Shown here piece by piece: positions 23,013-63,191 of a DNA stretch of 64,000 bases. How positions within the stretch are numbered: the first letter of the stretch is position 1; each line of letters begins with the position of its first letter. Below the pieces are notes generated by a model. It ran no database searches and was not told where the DNA came from. It saw only the letters and a program-made list of their open reading frames with translations. The translations under genes and the position numbers were made by a program. This DNA comes from Prochlorococcus marinus bv. HNLC2 (GTDB lineage: Bacteria; Cyanobacteriota; Cyanobacteriia; PCC-6307; Cyanobiaceae), in assembly GCA_000218745.1 (NCBI GenBank), contig GL947595.1:432556-496555 (forward strand), given 5' to 3'.

Positions 23013-24092
23013 TTAGTTTGCACCAATTAATTTCTGACCATTAAGTCTTTGAAGAATCCTAGAAATTATAAGTTTTAGGGTAATTTTCTTTTCATCAATT
23101 AAAAAAGACTCGATAATACTTGGCTTTTCATAGTTTTTACATAACGAAAAACTCTTAAGAGATGTAATATCTTCTTTTTCAAAGGACAACCAGAAATTAC
23201 ATGTCTCTTGGACCTCACAATAAATAACCCAACAGATATCTTCTGAAATTGGTCTATTGGTCTTCTTAATATTGATAACATCTATAACCTTACCTCTAAT
23301 CTTAAACTCATTAATAATTTCAGGAATTAAATGATCATTAATAAATTCATTAAAAGGCTTTTTTTCGATAGGAATTTCTTTTTTAGGTTTTACTTTAGGT
23401 TTTACATCTAAACGATCCTTAATAATTTGATTAGATTTTTCAATGAGAATTTTATTCGTATCTGAATTAGTTTTTATTAATTTATTTTTCAGAATTTTTC
23501 TTATCTAATTCCTCCTTAATTTCTGCTTTAGGAACTTCTTTATTCTCAATTTCAGCATTATTATTCTCTTCTGTGTTTTTAATTCCTCCTTACTTTCTGC
23601 TTTAGGAACTTCTTTATTCTCAATTTCAGCATTATTATTGTCTTCTGTAGTTTTTAATTCCTCCTTACTTTCTGCTTTAGGAACTTCTTTATTCTCAATT
23701 TCACCTTTATTATTGTCTTCTGTAGTTTTTAATTCCTCCTTACTTTCTGCTTTAGGAACTTCTTTATTCTCAATTTCAGCTTTATTATTGTCTTCTGTTG
23801 TTTTTAATTCCTCCTTACTTTCTGCTTTAGGAACTTCTTTATTCTCAATTTCAGCTTTAGTATTGTCTTCTGTTGTTTTTAATTCCTCCTTACTTTCTGC
23901 TTTAGGAACTTCTTTATTCTCAATTTCAGCATTATTATTCACTTCTGTCTCTTTTTTAGAAATAAATAAAGTTTCTTGTCTTTTATTTGTAGAATTTGGT
24001 TCATCTTTACCAAGATCATCTTTTGCTAAATAATCTAAATTTTCTTCAGATAAATCTGTACCTTTGATATATTTTTCATTTTTTTCTTCCAT
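23013..24092 (-). pseudogene. DUF2996 protein with repetitive N-terminal region, split by two frameshifts
   Basis: Reading from ATG 24092, the protein starts with an acidic leader, then repeats a 25-residue unit (NKEVPKAESKEELKTTEDNN). It leaves the repeat pattern in the sixth copy and stops at TAG 23505-23507. That copy is 74 bp rather than 75, with one base missing near 23574. The corrected frame continues KEELDKKNSE; a second shift near 23485-23499 then returns to the first frame, which is open to TAA 23013. This part encodes a clear DUF2996 domain: KKPFNEFINDHLIPE, NFWLSFEKEDITSL, KPSIIESFLIDEKKIT, RILQRLNGQKLIGAN. Two compensating one-base changes have probably broken one gene. As it stands, the DUF2996 part has no ATG start. 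Confidence 0.75.
23507..23955 (-). repeat. Six tandem 75-bp coding repeats
   Basis: Copies begin (plus-strand coordinates) at 23507, 23581, 23656, 23731, 23806 and 23881. Spacing is exactly 75 bp except for the first, which is 74 bp. Each encodes a 25-residue unit rich in Glu, Lys, Asn and Thr. The copies differ by only a few bases, showing recent expansion or homogenisation. They lie inside the N-terminal part of the DUF2996 gene. Confidence 0.95.
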
Positions 24093-24148: not shown

Positions 24149-24622
24149 TTACCAATTAGATTCAATTTCTTCCCAATCATCATAATTTTTATATTTATTA
24201 TCCATATATCCTTCATCAATATCATTAACTTCCGTATTATTTTGCTTTATAACACGATAATTTACTGAAATAGTTGGTTGTGAATCTCTAATATCCCTTT
24301 CTGGTGGCCTATCGTTAATAGACTCATTTATTTCAGTATTCTTTTCTGTGGAATTTCCTTGTAAGGTTTCTGAATTTATATCTCTTCTTTCATCATTAAA
24401 CATTTTATTTTCATTTTTTGAGCTTGTTAGATATGAAAAGGTAAATGTAGTAGTAAATCCAGCTAGAAAGGATAACGTAATAAAACTACCTAAAGTTAAT
24501 TTTTCAGTTTTGAAGTTTAAGAAATAAAGATATGTTTTTGATGTATTTTTTAAATTTATGATTGATAAGGTTATCGTTGTAAGTAAAAAAATTAAAATTA
24601 TAAGGTTTTTCTTTAATTTCAT
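24149..24622 (-). CDS. Two-helix membrane protein, LapA (DUF1049)-like
   Basis: A 157-residue protein. Two hydrophobic helices (residues 5-24 and 43-65) are joined by a short segment (NLKNTSKTYLYFLNFKTEKL), a layout like the LapA/DUF1049 family. A polar, acidic cytoplasmic tail carries a conserved-looking stretch (RPPERDIRDSQPTISVNYRV) and ends in an acidic/aromatic run. The family label is by layout only. It is in a same-strand run between the RNB protein and the DUF2996 gene, with 34-56 bp gaps. Confidence 0.55.
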   Translation of the reverse strand: MKLKKNLIILIFLLTTITLSIINLKNTSKTYLYFLNFKTEKLTLGSFITLSFLAGFTTTFTFSYLTSSKNENKMFNDERRDINSETLQGNSTEKNTEINESINDRPPERDIRDSQPTISVNYRVIKQNNTEVNDIDEGYMDNKYKNYDDWEEIESNW

Positions 24623-24656: not shown

Positions 24657-26873
24657 TTAAGTAATTTCTAAATCAATTTGATATTTTAAGATATCCACTT
24701 TAACAATTTTTATTTCTATCAAATCTCCAACTTTGAAGGTATTTTTTGATTTTCTTCCAACTAAGAGATTTTGTCTGGAACGATATTCATACCAATCATC
24801 ATTAAGCGTACTTACATGAACTAATCCCTCAATATATAAGTCTGGCAATTCAACAAAAAATCCATAACTTTGGACTGTAATAATCAAACCATTAAATTTT
24901 TTCCCAATTAATTTTTCTGCTTCTCTAATACGTTTGATAGTTATATAATTGGATCTAAATAATTCATATTTAGTTTTATAAGAATTATATTTATCTATTA
25001 AAACGTCATTAAAGAAAATATTTAAGAGCTTTATATTACTCGCATTAAATAAATTCCAAGTAACAAGGTTCCAGGAATCCTTTTTGAAAATATTGATTTC
25101 TTTTGTACCCTTTTTAGATCGTTTAGCATTTTTAAACATATTAAATAAACTATATTGATTAATTAAATTAACAAAATCTAAAGAGGGCAATGTCCAAGGT
25201 GATATTGAAGATTTAAAATTGTTTTCTTCAGAAAAGGAACAATTAATATTAGCTTTGTTTTTATATAAATTATTCATTAAATATTTATTTATAATTCTTT
25301 TTTTATTATCCTCGTCGCACAAACTCAGCAACTTATCAAGACTTAAATTACCATTACTGTCTAATTCTAAATCAGATTCTAGTAACTGAGTATTTTTAAT
25401 GATCTCATTAACATTAACCTTACTTGAACCAATAGAGAGATAATTTGCATTAAATATTTTTAGGTTTGAAGAATGTTCGAACCATATTGAATCTGCTTCA
25501 AATAAAATAGGTGATATATAAGTTTGAATATCATTAATATTTAGTGGCTCAAAAAAATCATTATCATATGAACAAGGTTTATGAAAATAAAATTCGTCAA
25601 GTAAATCTAGAGTATTAGGCTCTTTGGCAATTTCACATATACCTCTTGAAATTTGCTTTTCTCTAAACTTTTGTGAAATTTCTAAAATATAATTTATTTC
25701 ATCTAAATAATCTTTTATTGGTTTTAATATTCTTGATGTAATTCTTGATTTTTTATTGTTTTTGTTAATAGCATCCAAAAGTTTATTATCTATTATTGCA
25801 ACACAATTAACTTCTGTTAAGTGAAAAGACCAATCTACTATTTCAAATTCATTTGATAATACTAAACATAAACTAATACTTTTATTAATTTTTCCTATTT
25901 CAAATTTTGATAAATTTAATAATTCCTTGTTAAGGAAACTTTTCCATCTATCTGCTAGTAGAAATGATCCAAAATTGCAATTAAAAAATTCAACTAAATT
26001 TTTATCATTGAAATTTATCCTTTCTGCAATTGAATTTGTATGTATCCAAAGTTTTGAATAACCTTGATTATTTTTTTCATATTGAAACAAAGGTAGTAAG
26101 GGACAATCAGCTTTTTTCCAACTTTTAAACATGAAGGAGTTTTTAGTCGATAAGTCAATTCTTTCTTTAATTTCTGGATCTTGAAGTTTTAAAGTTAAAT
26201 TCTGATTATTTAGATAGATATTATTTTTGGATAATACAAATTCTTCGTCTAATTTTTCATTTTCACTTAAATTTAATTCTTTAATAACATGCCCAGTCCC
26301 CTCAATCTGAGCAATTGGAAACATATCAATCTCTATATTTACTATATTTTTTCTCTCTGGAAAGTATAAATATTTTTTATCGCTTGATGGTAATTTGATT
26401 TTTGATAAGATTCTGTCATCGATAGGAATCCCATAAACCTTATCATCAATTATTTGTACTCGTGCTAATAGATTTTTATGTTCTCTTTCTAAAATACAAT
26501 CAACAATTCCCTCTGGAGATCTTCTTCTAACACCTTCCTTAATAATTCTTACTAGCACTTTATCTCCATTCCATGCATAATTTAATAAATTTTCCTTTAT
26601 GTAAATATCATCTGAAGAATTATCTCTTACAGCAAAGCAGTAGCCCTTGCTGCTACATCTTATCTTTGCTGTTATATGAGTCTTATCTTTGATATTTAGA
26701 TATTCATTTTTATCATTTTTACTTATTATTTCAAGTCTTTCTAATGCTTCCAGAGCGATATTTAATTTTGCTTTATCATCCTTTTTGGAAAACTTAAGTA
26801 ACTTACAAAGCTTTTTATAATCTGTTGTTTCATCTTTTTTTAAATTATCAATTATTAACGATGTACTCAACAT
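24657..26873 (-). CDS. RNB-type exoribonuclease homologue, apparently catalytically inactive
   Basis: A 738-residue protein with the layout of RNase II/R: N-terminal winged-helix and cold-shock-like domains (ITAKIRCSSKGYCFAVR, DDIYIKENLLNYAWNGDKVLV), a central RNB-like region, and a C-terminal S1 domain (residues 655-738: KKFNGLIITVQSYGFFVELP). The catalytic motif IDxxxxxDIDDA is missing; the matching place reads KKADCPLLPLFQYEK just before LWIHTNSIAERINF. The TSPxRRYxDL motif has become SISPWTLPSLDFVNLINQ. It may act as an RNA-binding protein without nuclease activity. The intact RNB gene at 39760-40947 shows what is missing. Confidence 0.8.
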   Translation of the reverse strand: MLSTSLIIDNLKKDETTDYKKLCKLLKFSKKDDKAKLNIALEALERLEIISKNDKNEYLNIKDKTHITAKIRCSSKGYCFAVRDNSSDDIYIKENLLNYAWNGDKVLVRIIKEGVRRRSPEGIVDCILEREHKNLLARVQIIDDKVYGIPIDDRILSKIKLPSSDKKYLYFPERKNIVNIEIDMFPIAQIEGTGHVIKELNLSENEKLDEEFVLSKNNIYLNNQNLTLKLQDPEIKERIDLSTKNSFMFKSWKKADCPLLPLFQYEKNNQGYSKLWIHTNSIAERINFNDKNLVEFFNCNFGSFLLADRWKSFLNKELLNLSKFEIGKINKSISLCLVLSNEFEIVDWSFHLTEVNCVAIIDNKLLDAINKNNKKSRITSRILKPIKDYLDEINYILEISQKFREKQISRGICEIAKEPNTLDLLDEFYFHKPCSYDNDFFEPLNINDIQTYISPILFEADSIWFEHSSNLKIFNANYLSIGSSKVNVNEIIKNTQLLESDLELDSNGNLSLDKLLSLCDEDNKKRIINKYLMNNLYKNKANINCSFSEENNFKSSISPWTLPSLDFVNLINQYSLFNMFKNAKRSKKGTKEINIFKKDSWNLVTWNLFNASNIKLLNIFFNDVLIDKYNSYKTKYELFRSNYITIKRIREAEKLIGKKFNGLIITVQSYGFFVELPDLYIEGLVHVSTLNDDWYEYRSRQNLLVGRKSKNTFKVGDLIEIKIVKVDILKYQIDLEIT

Positions 26874-26950: not shown

Positions 26951-27247
26951 TTATTTGATTTTATTTTTATCTAAATTAAATGAATCATAAATTAGTCTAG
27001 ATCCAATTATTAGAAATGTTATGGATGCTATCAGCTTAAGATAAATTTCAGGAATAAAAGTTGAGATTGATCCACCAGCTAAAACACCTAATAAAGTAGC
27101 TAGAATAAGTGCAGAAGCAGAACCTAAAAAAACTGCCCAAGGTTTTGTAGAGTTTCCACTAAGTGTTAAGGTTGCTATTTGAGTTTTATCACCTAACTCT
27201 GCGATAAAAATAGTTATGAAGGATGATATCAGTAAATTAATAATCAT
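26951..27247 (-). CDS. GDT1/TMEM165 family half-transporter, second gene
   Basis: A small membrane protein (98 residues from the ATG at 27247) with one copy of the UPF0016 signature, ELGDKTQIATLTLS, and three hydrophobic segments. GDT1-type transporters move Mn2+ or Ca2+ and usually carry two such motifs in one chain. Here two adjacent genes carry one each, so they probably form a heterodimer. A longer reading from 27295 is possible but would overlap the neighbour; the ATG at 27247 is 11 bp after its stop and is preferred. Confidence 0.85.
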   Translation of the reverse strand: MIINLLISSFITIFIAELGDKTQIATLTLSGNSTKPWAVFLGSASALILATLLGVLAGGSISTFIPEIYLKLIASITFLIIGSRLIYDSFNLDKNKIK

Positions 27248-27258
27248 TTGATAACCAT

Positions 27259-27573
27259 TTAATAGTAGATAGTGTAAATAGTATATCCAATCCAAATACT
27301 AATCATAGTCATTAGTAAGCCTGTAAAGAAAGAAAGTCGTTCTTTAGAGATCATACTAGAAAGCCATTTTCCTATCAGCACTCCTGCGATACTAGAGCAT
27401 AGTAGAGCAAATGAACTACCAATAAAAACAATTAGTGGCCTTCCAGATTCAGCTGAAAGCATAAGCGTTGCCAACTGAGTTTTATCTCCTAGCTCTGCTA
27501 TAAATATTGTTGTAAAACTTGTTATGAATATTGATAAGAAGTTTTTTTCTAAGTCATCTTTTTCTTTTGACAT
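27259..27573 (-). CDS. GDT1/TMEM165 family half-transporter, first gene
   Basis: A 104-residue membrane protein with the UPF0016 signature AELGDKTQLATLMLSA and three hydrophobic segments. Together with the following gene it makes up the two halves of a GDT1 cation transporter; the cyanobacterial relative (Mnx type) exports Mn2+ from the cytosol into the thylakoid lumen. Substrate here is inferred from the family. It is 1 bp from the stop of the cysteine-cluster gene, so the three probably form an operon. Confidence 0.87.
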   Translation of the reverse strand: MSKEKDDLEKNFLSIFITSFTTIFIAELGDKTQLATLMLSAESGRPLIVFIGSSFALLCSSIAGVLIGKWLSSMISKERLSFFTGLLMTMISIWIGYTIYTIYY

Positions 27574-45160: not shown

Positions 45161-45987
45161 TTAAAGAAAATTCTCCAACAACTTTTCAGGTCCATTAATT
45201 TTCAAATATCTTGTATCAGATTTTTCTGTTACTAATAAATATCCTGCAAATCCTAGACCATTAACACTAAAACCATAAAGTTTATCATTAGATCTTTTTA
45301 TTAATGCTATCCAATTATTAGTAATCAATAAATTATATGGTTTCTTAGGTTTATTATCTATGAGAGGATCTCCTATTCCAATGTTCCTGGATAAATCCAT
45401 ATAATTCTCATATATAATATTTATGTCACAAGAAAAATCAAATGATTTAACGATAATATTTTTAAAAAGCTTTTTGTTAACCTCACCTTTTTTGAAATTT
45501 AAAAACCACTTTTCTCTTGGACATATATTTTCATTATGACTTCTTCTCAATAATTGTATATGTCGGTGAGGTTGGCTTGCTCCGGCTAAAGGACTACTAT
45601 TGAAAAACCAAAGTCCAGATGTATCTTTATTTACTGCCTTAATTGCTTTCCAATCATTAAGATCTAACCATCCATTTTGAGGCATCCATTTATTTGTAAT
45701 TAATAAAATATGTCCTAATTGAACAGGATATTTATTTAGTATTAATTGATGAAATTGACCTATCTTTCCAATTTCTAATATTTTTTCCCATGGATTAAAT
45801 GGATTAATTTTTGGACCAATATTTACATCCCTTTTAAATTTACTAGTATCTAATCTTCTTATTAAAAAGTCATTTTTATCATAAAACTCTTTAGTTATAT
45901 CGATGTACTTAGTGGAAATAGATGACCTTTATCAATAGAAATTTTGGTTTTTTCAAGGGCTTTTTCCCAATATATTTCTCTTCGCAT
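45161..45987 (-). pseudogene. ATP adenylyltransferase (Ap4A phosphorylase), frameshifted near its start
   Basis: The downstream part (ORF from 45685) holds the conserved core: FNSSPLAGASQPHRHIQLLRR, with the HxHxQ-type catalytic histidines, and GLWFF. Upstream the same frame continues to TKEFYDKNDFLIRRL and GQFHQLILNKYPVQLGH, but has no start. The true N-terminus (MRREIYWEKALEKTKISIDK) is in another frame from ATG 45987 and stops at TAA 45895. A single indel near 45900-45925 therefore separates the first ~28 residues from the rest. The enzyme splits diadenosine tetraphosphate by phosphorolysis. With the correction the protein would be about 274 residues, normal for the family. Confidence 0.8.
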
Positions 45988-46789: not shown

Positions 46790-49700
46790 TTAGGCACTAA
46801 AGTACTTTGCTTTTGAATGGAGAGATACAATTGCAGTAGTACTTTGTTCGGGATGGAGTTGTTCAGAGTCATCCATTGAAAGATTTATTCTTTTAGCTTC
46901 AAGCAATTCTAATTGAATTTTAGAATCCAAAACCTTGGGGCAAGCAGGATAGCCAAAGGAGAATCTTGAACCTCTATATTTTTGAGCCAAAATCTCTTTT
47001 GTGTGTAAAGGTTCAAATTCTTGAAATCCACACTCAATCCTTATTTTTGAATGTACATATTCAGCAAGAGCTTCAGCTAATTGGACTGCTAATCCGTGAA
47101 AAATCAAATAATCACTATATCTATCATCTTTAAAAAGTTTTTGCGAATATTCACTTGCAATATCTCCCATAGTTACCGCCTGCATAGGAAAATAATCAAT
47201 TGGCTTGCCATCTTTTAAATCACAATAGAAATCAGCTATGCAAAGATTAGATCCTGATTTTTGTCTGGGGAAGTTAAAGACAGCAATTTTTTTACTACCA
47301 TCTTCATCAAATAGTATGATATCGTTTTTTTCTCTTCCACATCTGAAATACCCATAAACAGCTTGAGGATTTACTAAATTATTATCTTTAATAATATTTA
47401 TCCATTTTTCTAGCAAAGGTTCAGCGTATGATTTTAAATAATCCGCATATTCATCAGAATTCTGACTTTTGCTTTTTTTTATCTGCCATTGACCACTAAA
47501 TAATGCTTTTTTGTCTAAGTAAAATAATAGATCTTCTATTTCTAAATCATTATTTTGAATTAATTTGCTTCCAACAAATGGAACCTTAATAGGATTTTCT
47601 TCAACTGCGTAATCTGATCTTTCTGTTACTTGATTTATATCTATATTTTTCTTTTTGATATGGGAATTAATTTTTATATCTTCTTTTTTCGATAATTTAG
47701 CATTAGCTAATTTGATATAAACATTTTCTTTATCTATAAAACCTTCTGTATCAGACCAATTACCTTTTTTCTTATTTTCCATATATTCATTCATGAATCT
47801 TAAGTCTGTAAAAGCATCTTTTCCATATAAAATTTTTCCATTGTAAATACTACTACAATCCTCATTAACAAATTTTGGAGTCAAAGCAGCTCCACCTAAA
47901 ATTACTGGAACTTTTATATCAGCTTCATTAAATGATTTAAGGTTATCTTTCATAAAAGCTGTTGATTTTACTAACAAACCACTCATTGCTATACAATCAG
48001 CTTTATGAAATTTTTGAGCTTCTATTATAGAACTAACATCTTGTTTTATACCTAAATTTATAACATCATATCCATTATTAGATAAGATAATATCTACTAA
48101 GTTTTTTCCAATATCATGTACATCTCCTTTTACTGTGGCTATTAAGAACTTTCCTTTAGAAACATTTTCTTCAACTGTCTCCATAAATGGTTCCAATAAA
48201 GAAACGGCAAATTTCATTGTTTCAGCTGATTGAAGAACAAATGGTAATTGCATTTGACCGGATCCAAATAAATCTCCGACAACTTTCATACCATCTAACA
48301 AAAACGTATTTATTATTTCAAGAGGTTTATAACTCTTCAATGCTTTATTTAATAATTCCTCTAAACCAATTTTCTCACCATCAATAATATGATTTTTTAG
48401 ACGTTCCTCCAGTGTTAGTTTTTCTAAGCTTTTATTTACTTTCTTTAAATCCTTTATTGATAAGTCCTGAAATTCTTTAGTTAATTCAACTAAGGGATCA
48501 TATGTACAAATTTCATTTGTAAATATTCTTTTATCATAAATTAAATCTAAGCATAGCTTTTTTGTTTTCTCGTTGATTTTTGAAAGTGGGAGAATTTTAT
48601 TAGGGGCTATAATGGCTGAATCCAAGCCAGCTTTTATACATTCATCAAGAAAAATTGAATTTAAATTTATCCTTGCTGCAGGGGAAAGTCCAAAACTTAT
48701 ATTAGAAATACCCAAAATAATATGACATTTATTTAAATTATCTCTTATTTTTTTTATAGCTTTTATTGTCTCTGCAGCATTTTTTCTATCTTCTTCTATA
48801 CCTGTCGATATTGGCAATGCTAAGAGGATCAAAGAATATCTCATAATCTTCTATTCCTTGATTTCTAGTGTCATTGATCGCTCTTTTAGCAATAATAAAT
48901 TTCTTTTCTGAATCCCTAGCCATACCATCTTCATCAATTGTTCCAATTACAAGACCAGAACCATAATTGACAGCTAAATTTAATACTGAATTAAATCTTT
49001 CATCACCATCTTCATAGTTTGTTGAGTTAAGAATACATTTTCCTCCTACAGCTTTTAAACCGCTTTCCATTTTGTCAGCATCTGTAGAGTCGATCATTAA
49101 AGGAAGGTTTATATTTGTGACTAATCTTGAGGTGATTTCTTTCATATCTGAGACCCCATTTCGACCAACAAAATCAACATTTACATCTAAAACATGTGCA
49201 TTCTCCTTTTGCTGCTGTTTAGCAATTGCTACGAGTCCATCCCAATCTTCAATATTTAATAATTCCCTAACCTTTTTAGAACCGCTTGCATTTAATCTTT
49301 CTCCAACTATTAATATTGAATTATCTTGTTCATAGGGAACTGAATTATAAATTGAAGAGGAAGAAGGTATAAAATTTCTAGAAATACTATTTGTTTTTTT
49401 TATTTCATCTTTTTTTATATCTGAGACCATAGAAGATAAATACTTGATATGTTCTGGTGTAGTTCCACAACACCCGCCAATAAGTTGAACATCATAATCA
49501 TAAATAAAGTTCATTAATTGCATCTTTAATTCAATTGGAGTTAATTTATAATGAGCTACACCACCAACATTTTCTGGTAAACCTGCATTAGGTATACAAC
49601 TAATTGCGAATGGTGAGTTTTCTGAAAAGTATTTAATATGTTCCTTCATTTCAACAGGACCAGTTGCGCAATTAAGGCCTAAAATATCTATATTAAAAGG

Positions 49701-50348
49701 CTCTAATATAGTTAGAGCTGAAGCTATATCAGATCCGACTAACATGGTTCCTGTGGTCTCCATTGTTATAGAAACCATTATGGGAATATCAACATTTTTT
49801 TTAATTAATATTTCCTTCGCTGCGAGAAGTGCTGATTTAATTTGTAATACATCTTGGCATGTCTCAATGAGTAAGAGATCACATCCTCCATCAATTAATC
49901 CAGAAATTTGATCTTTATAAGAATTCTTTAAATCATCAAAGCTTATATGTCCTAATGTTGGTAATTTAGTAGTTGGGCCAATAGAACCAGCGACAAATTT
50001 GGGATTATCAGTGGAACTATATTTATTAGCGCATCGTTTCGCAATTATTGAGGCTTTGTAATTTATTTCGTAGGCTTTATCTGAAATATTATATTCATCT
50101 AAGACTATAGATGAAGCACCAAAAGTATTAGTTTCTATAATATCGCAACCAGCCTCGAGAAATGTATTATGAACCTCTTCTACAGAGGCTGGAGATGATA
50201 ATACTAAATTTTCATTACAACCCTCTAAATCTTCACCTCCAAAATCTGATGAAGTTAAATTCATATTTTGAAAAGAGGTCCCTGTACCTCCATCAAAAAT
50301 GATAATTGGTTTATCGTCTCTTTTTAAATGTTCTCTAAAGAGTGACAT
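46790..50348 (-). pseudogene. metH: B12-dependent methionine synthase, frameshifted near the middle
   Basis: MetH makes methionine from homocysteine using methyl-tetrahydrofolate and cobalamin. The first part (50348 to 48786) has the zinc homocysteine domain (LIGGCCGTTPEHIKY) and the folate domain (IVGERLNASGSKK), then runs out of frame after DYEIFFDPL and stops. The second frame (from 48844) continues with LALPISTGIEEDRKNAAET, then the cobalamin domain (GDVHDIGKNLVDIIL with the DxHxxG motif) and the C-terminal activation domain. One extra base at about 48821 (CTT A GCA) explains both. Corrected length about 1180 residues is normal. It follows ilvE by 11 bp. Confidence 0.88.
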
Positions 50349-62332: not shown

Positions 62333-63191
62333 TTAATAACTATATTCTCCAGAAAATACTTTTTTAGCATCACCAGTCATATAAACTTCATCATTTTTAT
62401 CACCCCATTCAATATCTAATGTTCCACCAGGAAGTTTAATTGTTGATTTATTACCGCAGTAACCCAATCTAAAAGCAACTGAATGGATTGCACACGCACC
62501 TGTACCACAAGCTAAAGTTGCTCCAGCACCCCTCTCCCATACCAAAACTTCGATATTTTCACTATTTATAATTTTACAGAAATGAACATTTGTCTTTTGA
62601 GGAAAAAATTTATTTTTTTCAAGTAAAGGTCCTAATTCATATAAATTTATATTCTTTAGATTATCTACAAAAAAAATTAAATGAGGGTTGCCCATACTGC
62701 ATGAATAACCTCTGTTATTAAATTTATCTATTTCAAAAACCTTTGTTGGTATATCTTTTATCTTTTCAGAAATGATTGTTGGTATGAGATGACTTTCAAA
62801 AATTGGTTTACCCATATTAACTGTTATCTTACCTTTTTGATAAGTTGAGACTTTTAAGCCAGCTTTAGTTTCTATTCGAAATTCACATTTTGAATAATTA
62901 TCCAAAGTCCTATCTTTTAGAAATTTAATTAAACAACGTATCCCATTCCCACACATTTCAGCTTCTGAATTATCGGAATTATAAATAACCATTCTTACAT
63001 CATTATCATTATCAACTGCTTTTAATATAAAAATGATACCATCAGCTCCAATTCCAAAGTTTCTATTACATAAATTATTGAGAATTAATATTATTAAGCA
63101 AAAGATCTTTGTTAAAATCATATTTTCTAGAATCGATAATAATAAAATCATTACCATTTCCTTGATATTTTTCAAAGACAATTCTTGGCAT
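62333..63191 (-). pseudogene. dapF: Diaminopimelate epimerase, frameshifted near its start
   Basis: Converts LL- to meso-diaminopimelate. The real N-terminus is in the frame starting at ATG 63191 (MPRIVFEKYQGNGNDFIIID) but reaches TAA at 63075-63077. From about 63079 the remainder is in another frame: CNRNFGIGADGI, MVIYNSDNSEAEMCGNGIRC (first catalytic Cys), NPHLIFFVDN, and CGTGACAIHSVA (second Cys). An open ORF from 63181 uses the wrong N-terminus (MSLKNIKEMVM), a shadow. One inserted base near 63079-63090 explains it. Catalytic residues are otherwise intact. Confidence 0.85.

Follow-up and report, generated by a model that had tools for sequence, protein, structure and literature searches.

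In PMC12038448, NdhV is placed in the DUF2996 group. How this subunit meets ferredoxin has been described in two ways. According to one source, Arg122 and Lys123 of NdhV widen the ferredoxin interface (PMC7021789). The contrary is stated in another, where NdhV has no direct contact with ferredoxin and supports the NdhI hairpin that makes it (PMC6992706). A limited look at partial texts on DUF2996, on NdhV in Prochlorococcus and on disordered repeats in Prochlorococcus brought up no description of an NdhV tail built from repeats.

The locus studied here comes from Prochlorococcus HNLC2, which a table in PMC4421930 lists under clade HLIII as a 'Metagenomic assembly' of 1,484,494 bp (GL947595); a second metagenomic assembly, HNLC1, stands in the same table, and the HLIII single-cell genomes W3, W5, W7, W8 and W9 are also named in that paper. 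We analysed a 64-kb stretch of HNLC2, referred to below as the window. The HNLC2 genome is a single contig of 1,484,494 bp, and Rusch et al. 2010 is reportedly its source paper.

The ndhV locus and its 75-bp array

The locus comprises the following features, given in window coordinates.

23013..24092, minus strand: ndhV (DUF2996) gene, frame-broken as assembled; ATG at 24092, stop at 23015-23013
23505..24092, minus strand: 195-aa open frame, consisting of the N-terminal tail with five units and about 23 out-of-frame codons up to the stop
23506..23948, minus strand: tandem array of a 75-bp unit, 5.9 copies, TRF score 802
23557..23630, minus strand: fifth unit, 74 bp, site of the frame loss
23482..23589, minus strand: shifted-frame open stretch that carries the repeat peptide on through unit 6; second event near its 3′ end (23482-23507)
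23025..23369, minus strand: DUF2996/NdhV domain, intact (PF11210, E 1.6e-33; 6khi_V, E 6e-13)

TRF run on the 64-kb window found the array at 23506-23948 with a period of 75 and 96% matches; the next-best array scored 63 versus 802. On the minus strand the units start at 23930, 23855, 23780, 23705, 23630 and 23556, and the sixth matches the unit for about 50 bp before it diverges. The first-pass annotation had described coding repeats upstream of a DUF2996 domain, six 75-bp units making an acidic, Lys-rich tail, and both the TRF array and the PF11210 match bear this out. It had also held that the last copy lacks a base. A 74-bp unit is indeed present, but it is the fifth of the six (23630-23557).

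The first 170 residues of the tail contain 31% Asp and Glu, 18% Lys and Arg and 2% aromatic residues or Cys, with a net charge of -21. Aromatic residues or Cys make up 1–2% in four NdhV tails. We rejected the presence of a second array copy elsewhere in the HNLC2 genome, where the only other matches were 35 bp at 89% identity, in a Lys/Glu-rich low-complexity stretch, and 103 bp at 71% identity.

Read in frame 0, that is from the ATG at 24092, the gene meets a stop at 23507-23505, ahead of the DUF2996 domain. A different frame, open from 23589, carries the repeat peptide on through unit 6 and reaches its stop at 23484-23482; the domain is back in frame 0, the same as the tail start. Since unit 5 is one base short and the domain has returned to frame 0, an opposite second change lies between about 23482 and 23507. 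This agrees with the earlier claim that a second event restores the frame. It is worth stressing that the sequence as written would need two opposite shifts to give tail and domain in one chain.

Such a chain could in principle come from programmed frameshifting, in which the ribosome makes a -1 slip within the fifth unit and a +1 slip ahead of the domain to give full-length NdhV, and both shift intervals do lie in or near A-rich runs. The requirement for two opposite shifts speaks against it, as does the observation that no relative outside the HNLC assemblies needs a shift among the matches listed. Moreover, no slippery heptamer of the form X XXY YYZ was found in any frame of 23485-23589, and 23490-23580 showed no stimulatory RNA structure (z 0.33; the fold of 119 of 200 shuffled sequences was equally good or better). 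With neither heptamer nor structure in these intervals we rejected programmed frameshifting, the probability of which we consider negligible.

Alternatively, the DUF2996 domain might be made from an internal start of its own, with the tail as a separate 195-aa peptide. The downstream frame is open from 23504, as this would demand, but no ATG, GTG or TTG occurs between 23504 and the domain. The first listed start is a TTG at 23189, inside the domain, and relatives have one continuous protein. All this makes an internal start very improbable.

Two neighbours of the gene may be mentioned separately. Adjoining ndhV, 24149-24622 of the window (minus strand) holds a 157-aa Asn-rich hypothetical ORF with hydrophobic stretches, whose sole Pfam match, LapA_dom, is below threshold. 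The 738-aa protein at 24657-26873 is presumably of the RNase II/R type, judging by its appearance.

Identity of the protein

As far as its sequence tells, the locus is ndhV, which encodes a subunit of photosynthetic NDH-1 located at the end where ferredoxin binds. The product scores 116.2 bits against a PF11210 cut-off of 27 and matches 6khi_V (Tlr0472 in the NDH-1L structure) with an E value of 6e-13. In the 6khi_V alignment, a Lys-Lys of the window protein falls on Arg122/Lys123, the basic pair on the ferredoxin side of NdhV. Across nine aligned rows, the first Lys of the pair is invariant and the second position is Lys or Arg.

We also modelled the relative AH-287-E15 (L034) with AlphaFold2 from a nine-row alignment. 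The mean pLDDT was 49, with residues 1-271 below 50 and the domain more confident; the low values in the tail fit disorder, but are expected from so thin an alignment too. Compared with the PDB, the model gave no match at E 0.001 or better, and its best match was 6l7o_V (probability 1.00, TM 0.61 by target, E only 4.8e-3). The sequence match to 6khi_V and 6l7o_V as the best fold match of AH-287-E15 led us to reject a protein other than NdhV.

Tails and arrays in related genomes

Of 266 Prochlorococcus genomes, 192 had PF11210 above its cut-off, and all rows among the matches listed were stop-free. From these we fetched eight in which the frame was short or odd. Four turned out to be cut by contig ends and four were open genes with their own start, so that no broken tail was found in this check of eight. 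In the matches listed for the same 266 genomes, which give second matches for part of the genomes, the 75-bp array is absent outside HNLC2. All those from other genomes start on the domain side, at query position 686 or beyond. Thus, no intact copy of the HNLC2 array was seen in the other listed genomes.

For a survey of tails, 142 loci minus the window's own two copies gave 80 distinct tails, 74 of them with an N-terminus (one parsed to length 0), and every period from 27 to 160 was tried in each. The sample was not random, being composed of 30 top-scoring profile loci, 20 stretches partly picked for long frames, 24 named loci, 30 loci from the array search and large stretches; it therefore shows that different arrays exist, not how frequent they are. 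Six tails carried strong tandem arrays.

MIT9215 (L010): 72 bp, 8.4 copies, 99% identity
AH-287-E15: 99 bp, 5.1 copies
MIT9515 (L065): 51 bp, 9.9 copies
AH-321-C14: 108 bp, 4.8 copies
G092: 72 bp, 4.7 copies, cut by a contig end
AG-321-E21: 102 bp, 3.7 copies

All six periods, as well as the 75 bp of the window, are multiples of three, and outside the two HNLC assemblies the arrays are open frames. In G057 and G050, two further tails, the second copy (72 bp) is degenerate. Inspected by eye, the unit peptides show no relation between lineages, except for a NSAPKVDLKKEN-like segment common to MIT9215, G092, G057 and G050, which occurs as a single copy in some other strains. The arrays of MIT9215 and G092 have a motif in common and lie next to each other in the tree, which means that their two 72-bp periods are not independent.

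A comparison of repeat number among related strains had been suggested earlier; it reveals that both copy number and unit differ and that other lineages carry unrelated arrays. The proposal of an evolving spacer that grows by tandem duplication also gains from it, as relatives have 1, about 2, about 5 and 8 copies of one 72-bp segment (counted by eye). A separate observation concerns MIT9215, an isolate in one contig. Its roughly eight ndhV units of 72 bp are nearly identical (99%), which means either very recent expansion or strong homogenisation.

When repeats, whether strong or weak, are placed on a tree of 86 rows made from the domain and downstream DNA, their presence requires seven changes; the tree was built by a quick method that left 36 of 83 inner branches open, and HNLC1 was called repeat-bearing by eye. 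A clade of six, starred in the tree, contains the window, AH-287-E15, HNLC1 and three more rows, namely two long tails with no clear repeats and one contig that starts inside the tail. Relatives of the window in HLIII/IV have some of the longest NdhV tails. These results support, from sequence comparison, the conclusion that NdhV tails gained tandem arrays of largely unrelated units (51-108 bp) independently in several Prochlorococcus lineages. The repeats are probably real biology.

Frame breaks across the HNLC2 assembly

To judge the paired frame changes in ndhV, we turned to other genes of the assembly. As a control for frame breaks, the ORFs of MED4, MIT9515, MIT9215 and G050 (80 kb each) were compared by tblastn with the window and with each other. 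The 12 comparisons among the four control stretches, covering about 20,400-21,800 aa apiece, yielded 2 frame changes, and in both cases a single reference out of three showed the change. The HNLC2 window gave 4, 3, 3 and 3 frame changes against the four references in about 16,000-16,700 aa. Three of its breaks were seen by all four references:

46790..50348, minus strand: metH, one frame change near 48816-48844, used as a control for assembly errors
62342-63191, minus strand: dapF homologue, frame change near the 5′ end
45164-45987, minus strand: conserved 276-aa gene, frame change near the 5′ end

Set against the two single-reference control breaks, these three alone give p 0.004. The metH gene is split at one point, its two pieces covering positions 2-513 and 511-1181 of the profile. 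No other methionine synthase was found in the HNLC2 assembly, and a search for metE was negative.

When MED4 served as the sole reference for 224 kb of HNLC2 (the window and another 160 kb), 13 breaks were counted in 12 of 170 genes over 49,378 aa. Compared with 2 breaks in about 87,000 aa of controls, this is an 11-fold excess (p 9e-5), although 8 of the 13 have a piece below 60% identity and the other five by themselves give 4.4-fold with p 0.06. These five, with both pieces at 60% or more, are in gnd, metH, htpG, secD and a 177-aa gene. The broken genes in the sample also include ispE and dapF (the names gnd, dapF, htpG, ispE and secD are taken from the MED4 counterparts). A free-living autotroph cannot do without dapF, ispE, secD and a methionine synthase. 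The average density in HNLC2 is about one break per 11 kb of coding sequence. With a median identity to the references of 66–68% versus 75–93% among the references, HNLC2 is more diverged than the controls, which are therefore not fully matched; yet divergence alone moves no reading frame.

One more possible frame change in the window, at 26976-27535 (plus strand), affects a 201-aa gene and was seen only when MIT9515 was the reference. The counterpart of this gene in MIT9515 is also the query of the sole control break in MED4.

In the second metagenomic assembly, HNLC1, ndhV (L038, 5340-6420) also has a frame change and stops in a long tail, before the domain, and 12 kb of HNLC1 compared with the four references gave 2, 1, 1 and 1 frame changes in about 2,700-3,100 aa.

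One has to ask whether the -1/+1 pair could be real in some or all cells, with ndhV a pseudogene or a polymorphic allele there. The bases do stand so in the assembly, and a null allele could persist, given that Synechocystis tolerates NdhV deletion at low light, as stated in PMC4916593. On the other hand, the downstream domain is conserved, the shifted frame still yields repeat peptide in the sixth unit, the arrays of relatives outside the two HNLC assemblies are open, and similar breaks occur in conserved genes of the HNLC2 assembly. We consider a real pair unlikely. The first-pass annotation had presented it as a genetic event of the organism, a view that is hard to keep for a metagenomic assembly in which single frame changes break other conserved genes as well.

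Discussion

Our preferred reading, to which we assign a probability of roughly 0.87, is that the locus is an ndhV gene with a six-unit tail built by duplication, that the -1/+1 pair consists of consensus errors in HNLC2, and that cells probably encode one open protein. The tail would be long and probably disordered, with six 25-residue units, and would evolve by duplication and loss of in-frame tandem units, as in related Prochlorococcus. The array would be of recent duplication and normally in frame. Both one-base differences would then be errors in a consensus drawn from many cells. The repeats and short A/T runs would have contributed, as reads should be difficult to assign where the number of copies varies and A/T runs occur.

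That the pair itself is an error is most likely, judging by the other breaks in the HNLC2 assembly. Against this, a pair of breaks inside about 100 bp is denser than the assembly average, though one other gene also has two. Contigs that end at or inside the ndhV tail (L014, L037, L053, L068, L077, L147, L148, L149 and L151) may reflect assembly trouble there. The idea of an evolving spacer is supported, whereas no support was obtained for a frame event in living cells. Such events in HNLC1 and HNLC2 call for confirmation by reads before they are taken as biology.

Close to the site of ferredoxin, the tail may serve as a flexible spacer or tether, while neutral growth is equally possible. A further idea concerns high-light Prochlorococcus, where selection would act on the length and negative charge of the NdhV tail and not on its sequence. 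Arrays would keep arising and being replaced, and tail length would tune the docking of NdhV and ferredoxin on NDH-1 and hence cyclic electron flow. We offer this as a rather doubtful suggestion. In any case, NdhV appears to be a protein whose tail was repeatedly rebuilt from unrelated tandem units while the domain was conserved, and its tails constitute natural length variants for probing what the tail does.

Comparison with known NdhV proteins

The closest counterparts of the window gene differ in what they share with it. Like the window, the isolates MIT9215 and MIT9515 have in-frame tandem arrays in the NdhV tail (72 bp by about 8 and 51 bp by about 10, respectively), but their frames are open and their unit sequences look unrelated to the 75-bp unit. 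The HNLC1 gene resembles it in its long tail, where one segment is partly duplicated (by eye) and where the frame changes and stops occur, but the repeat segment and the break points are different.

The NdhV proteins of Thermosynechococcus (Tlr0472) and Synechocystis (Sll0272) have in common with the window protein the DUF2996 domain and the C-terminal DE-[RK]-[KR] motif with the basic pair on the ferredoxin side. Tlr0472 has about 41 residues before the KPF motif, as counted on the alignment, whereas the sampled Prochlorococcus tails have 58-286. Unlike both of these proteins, Prochlorococcus NdhV has tails that, in several lineages, are built of tandem repeats.
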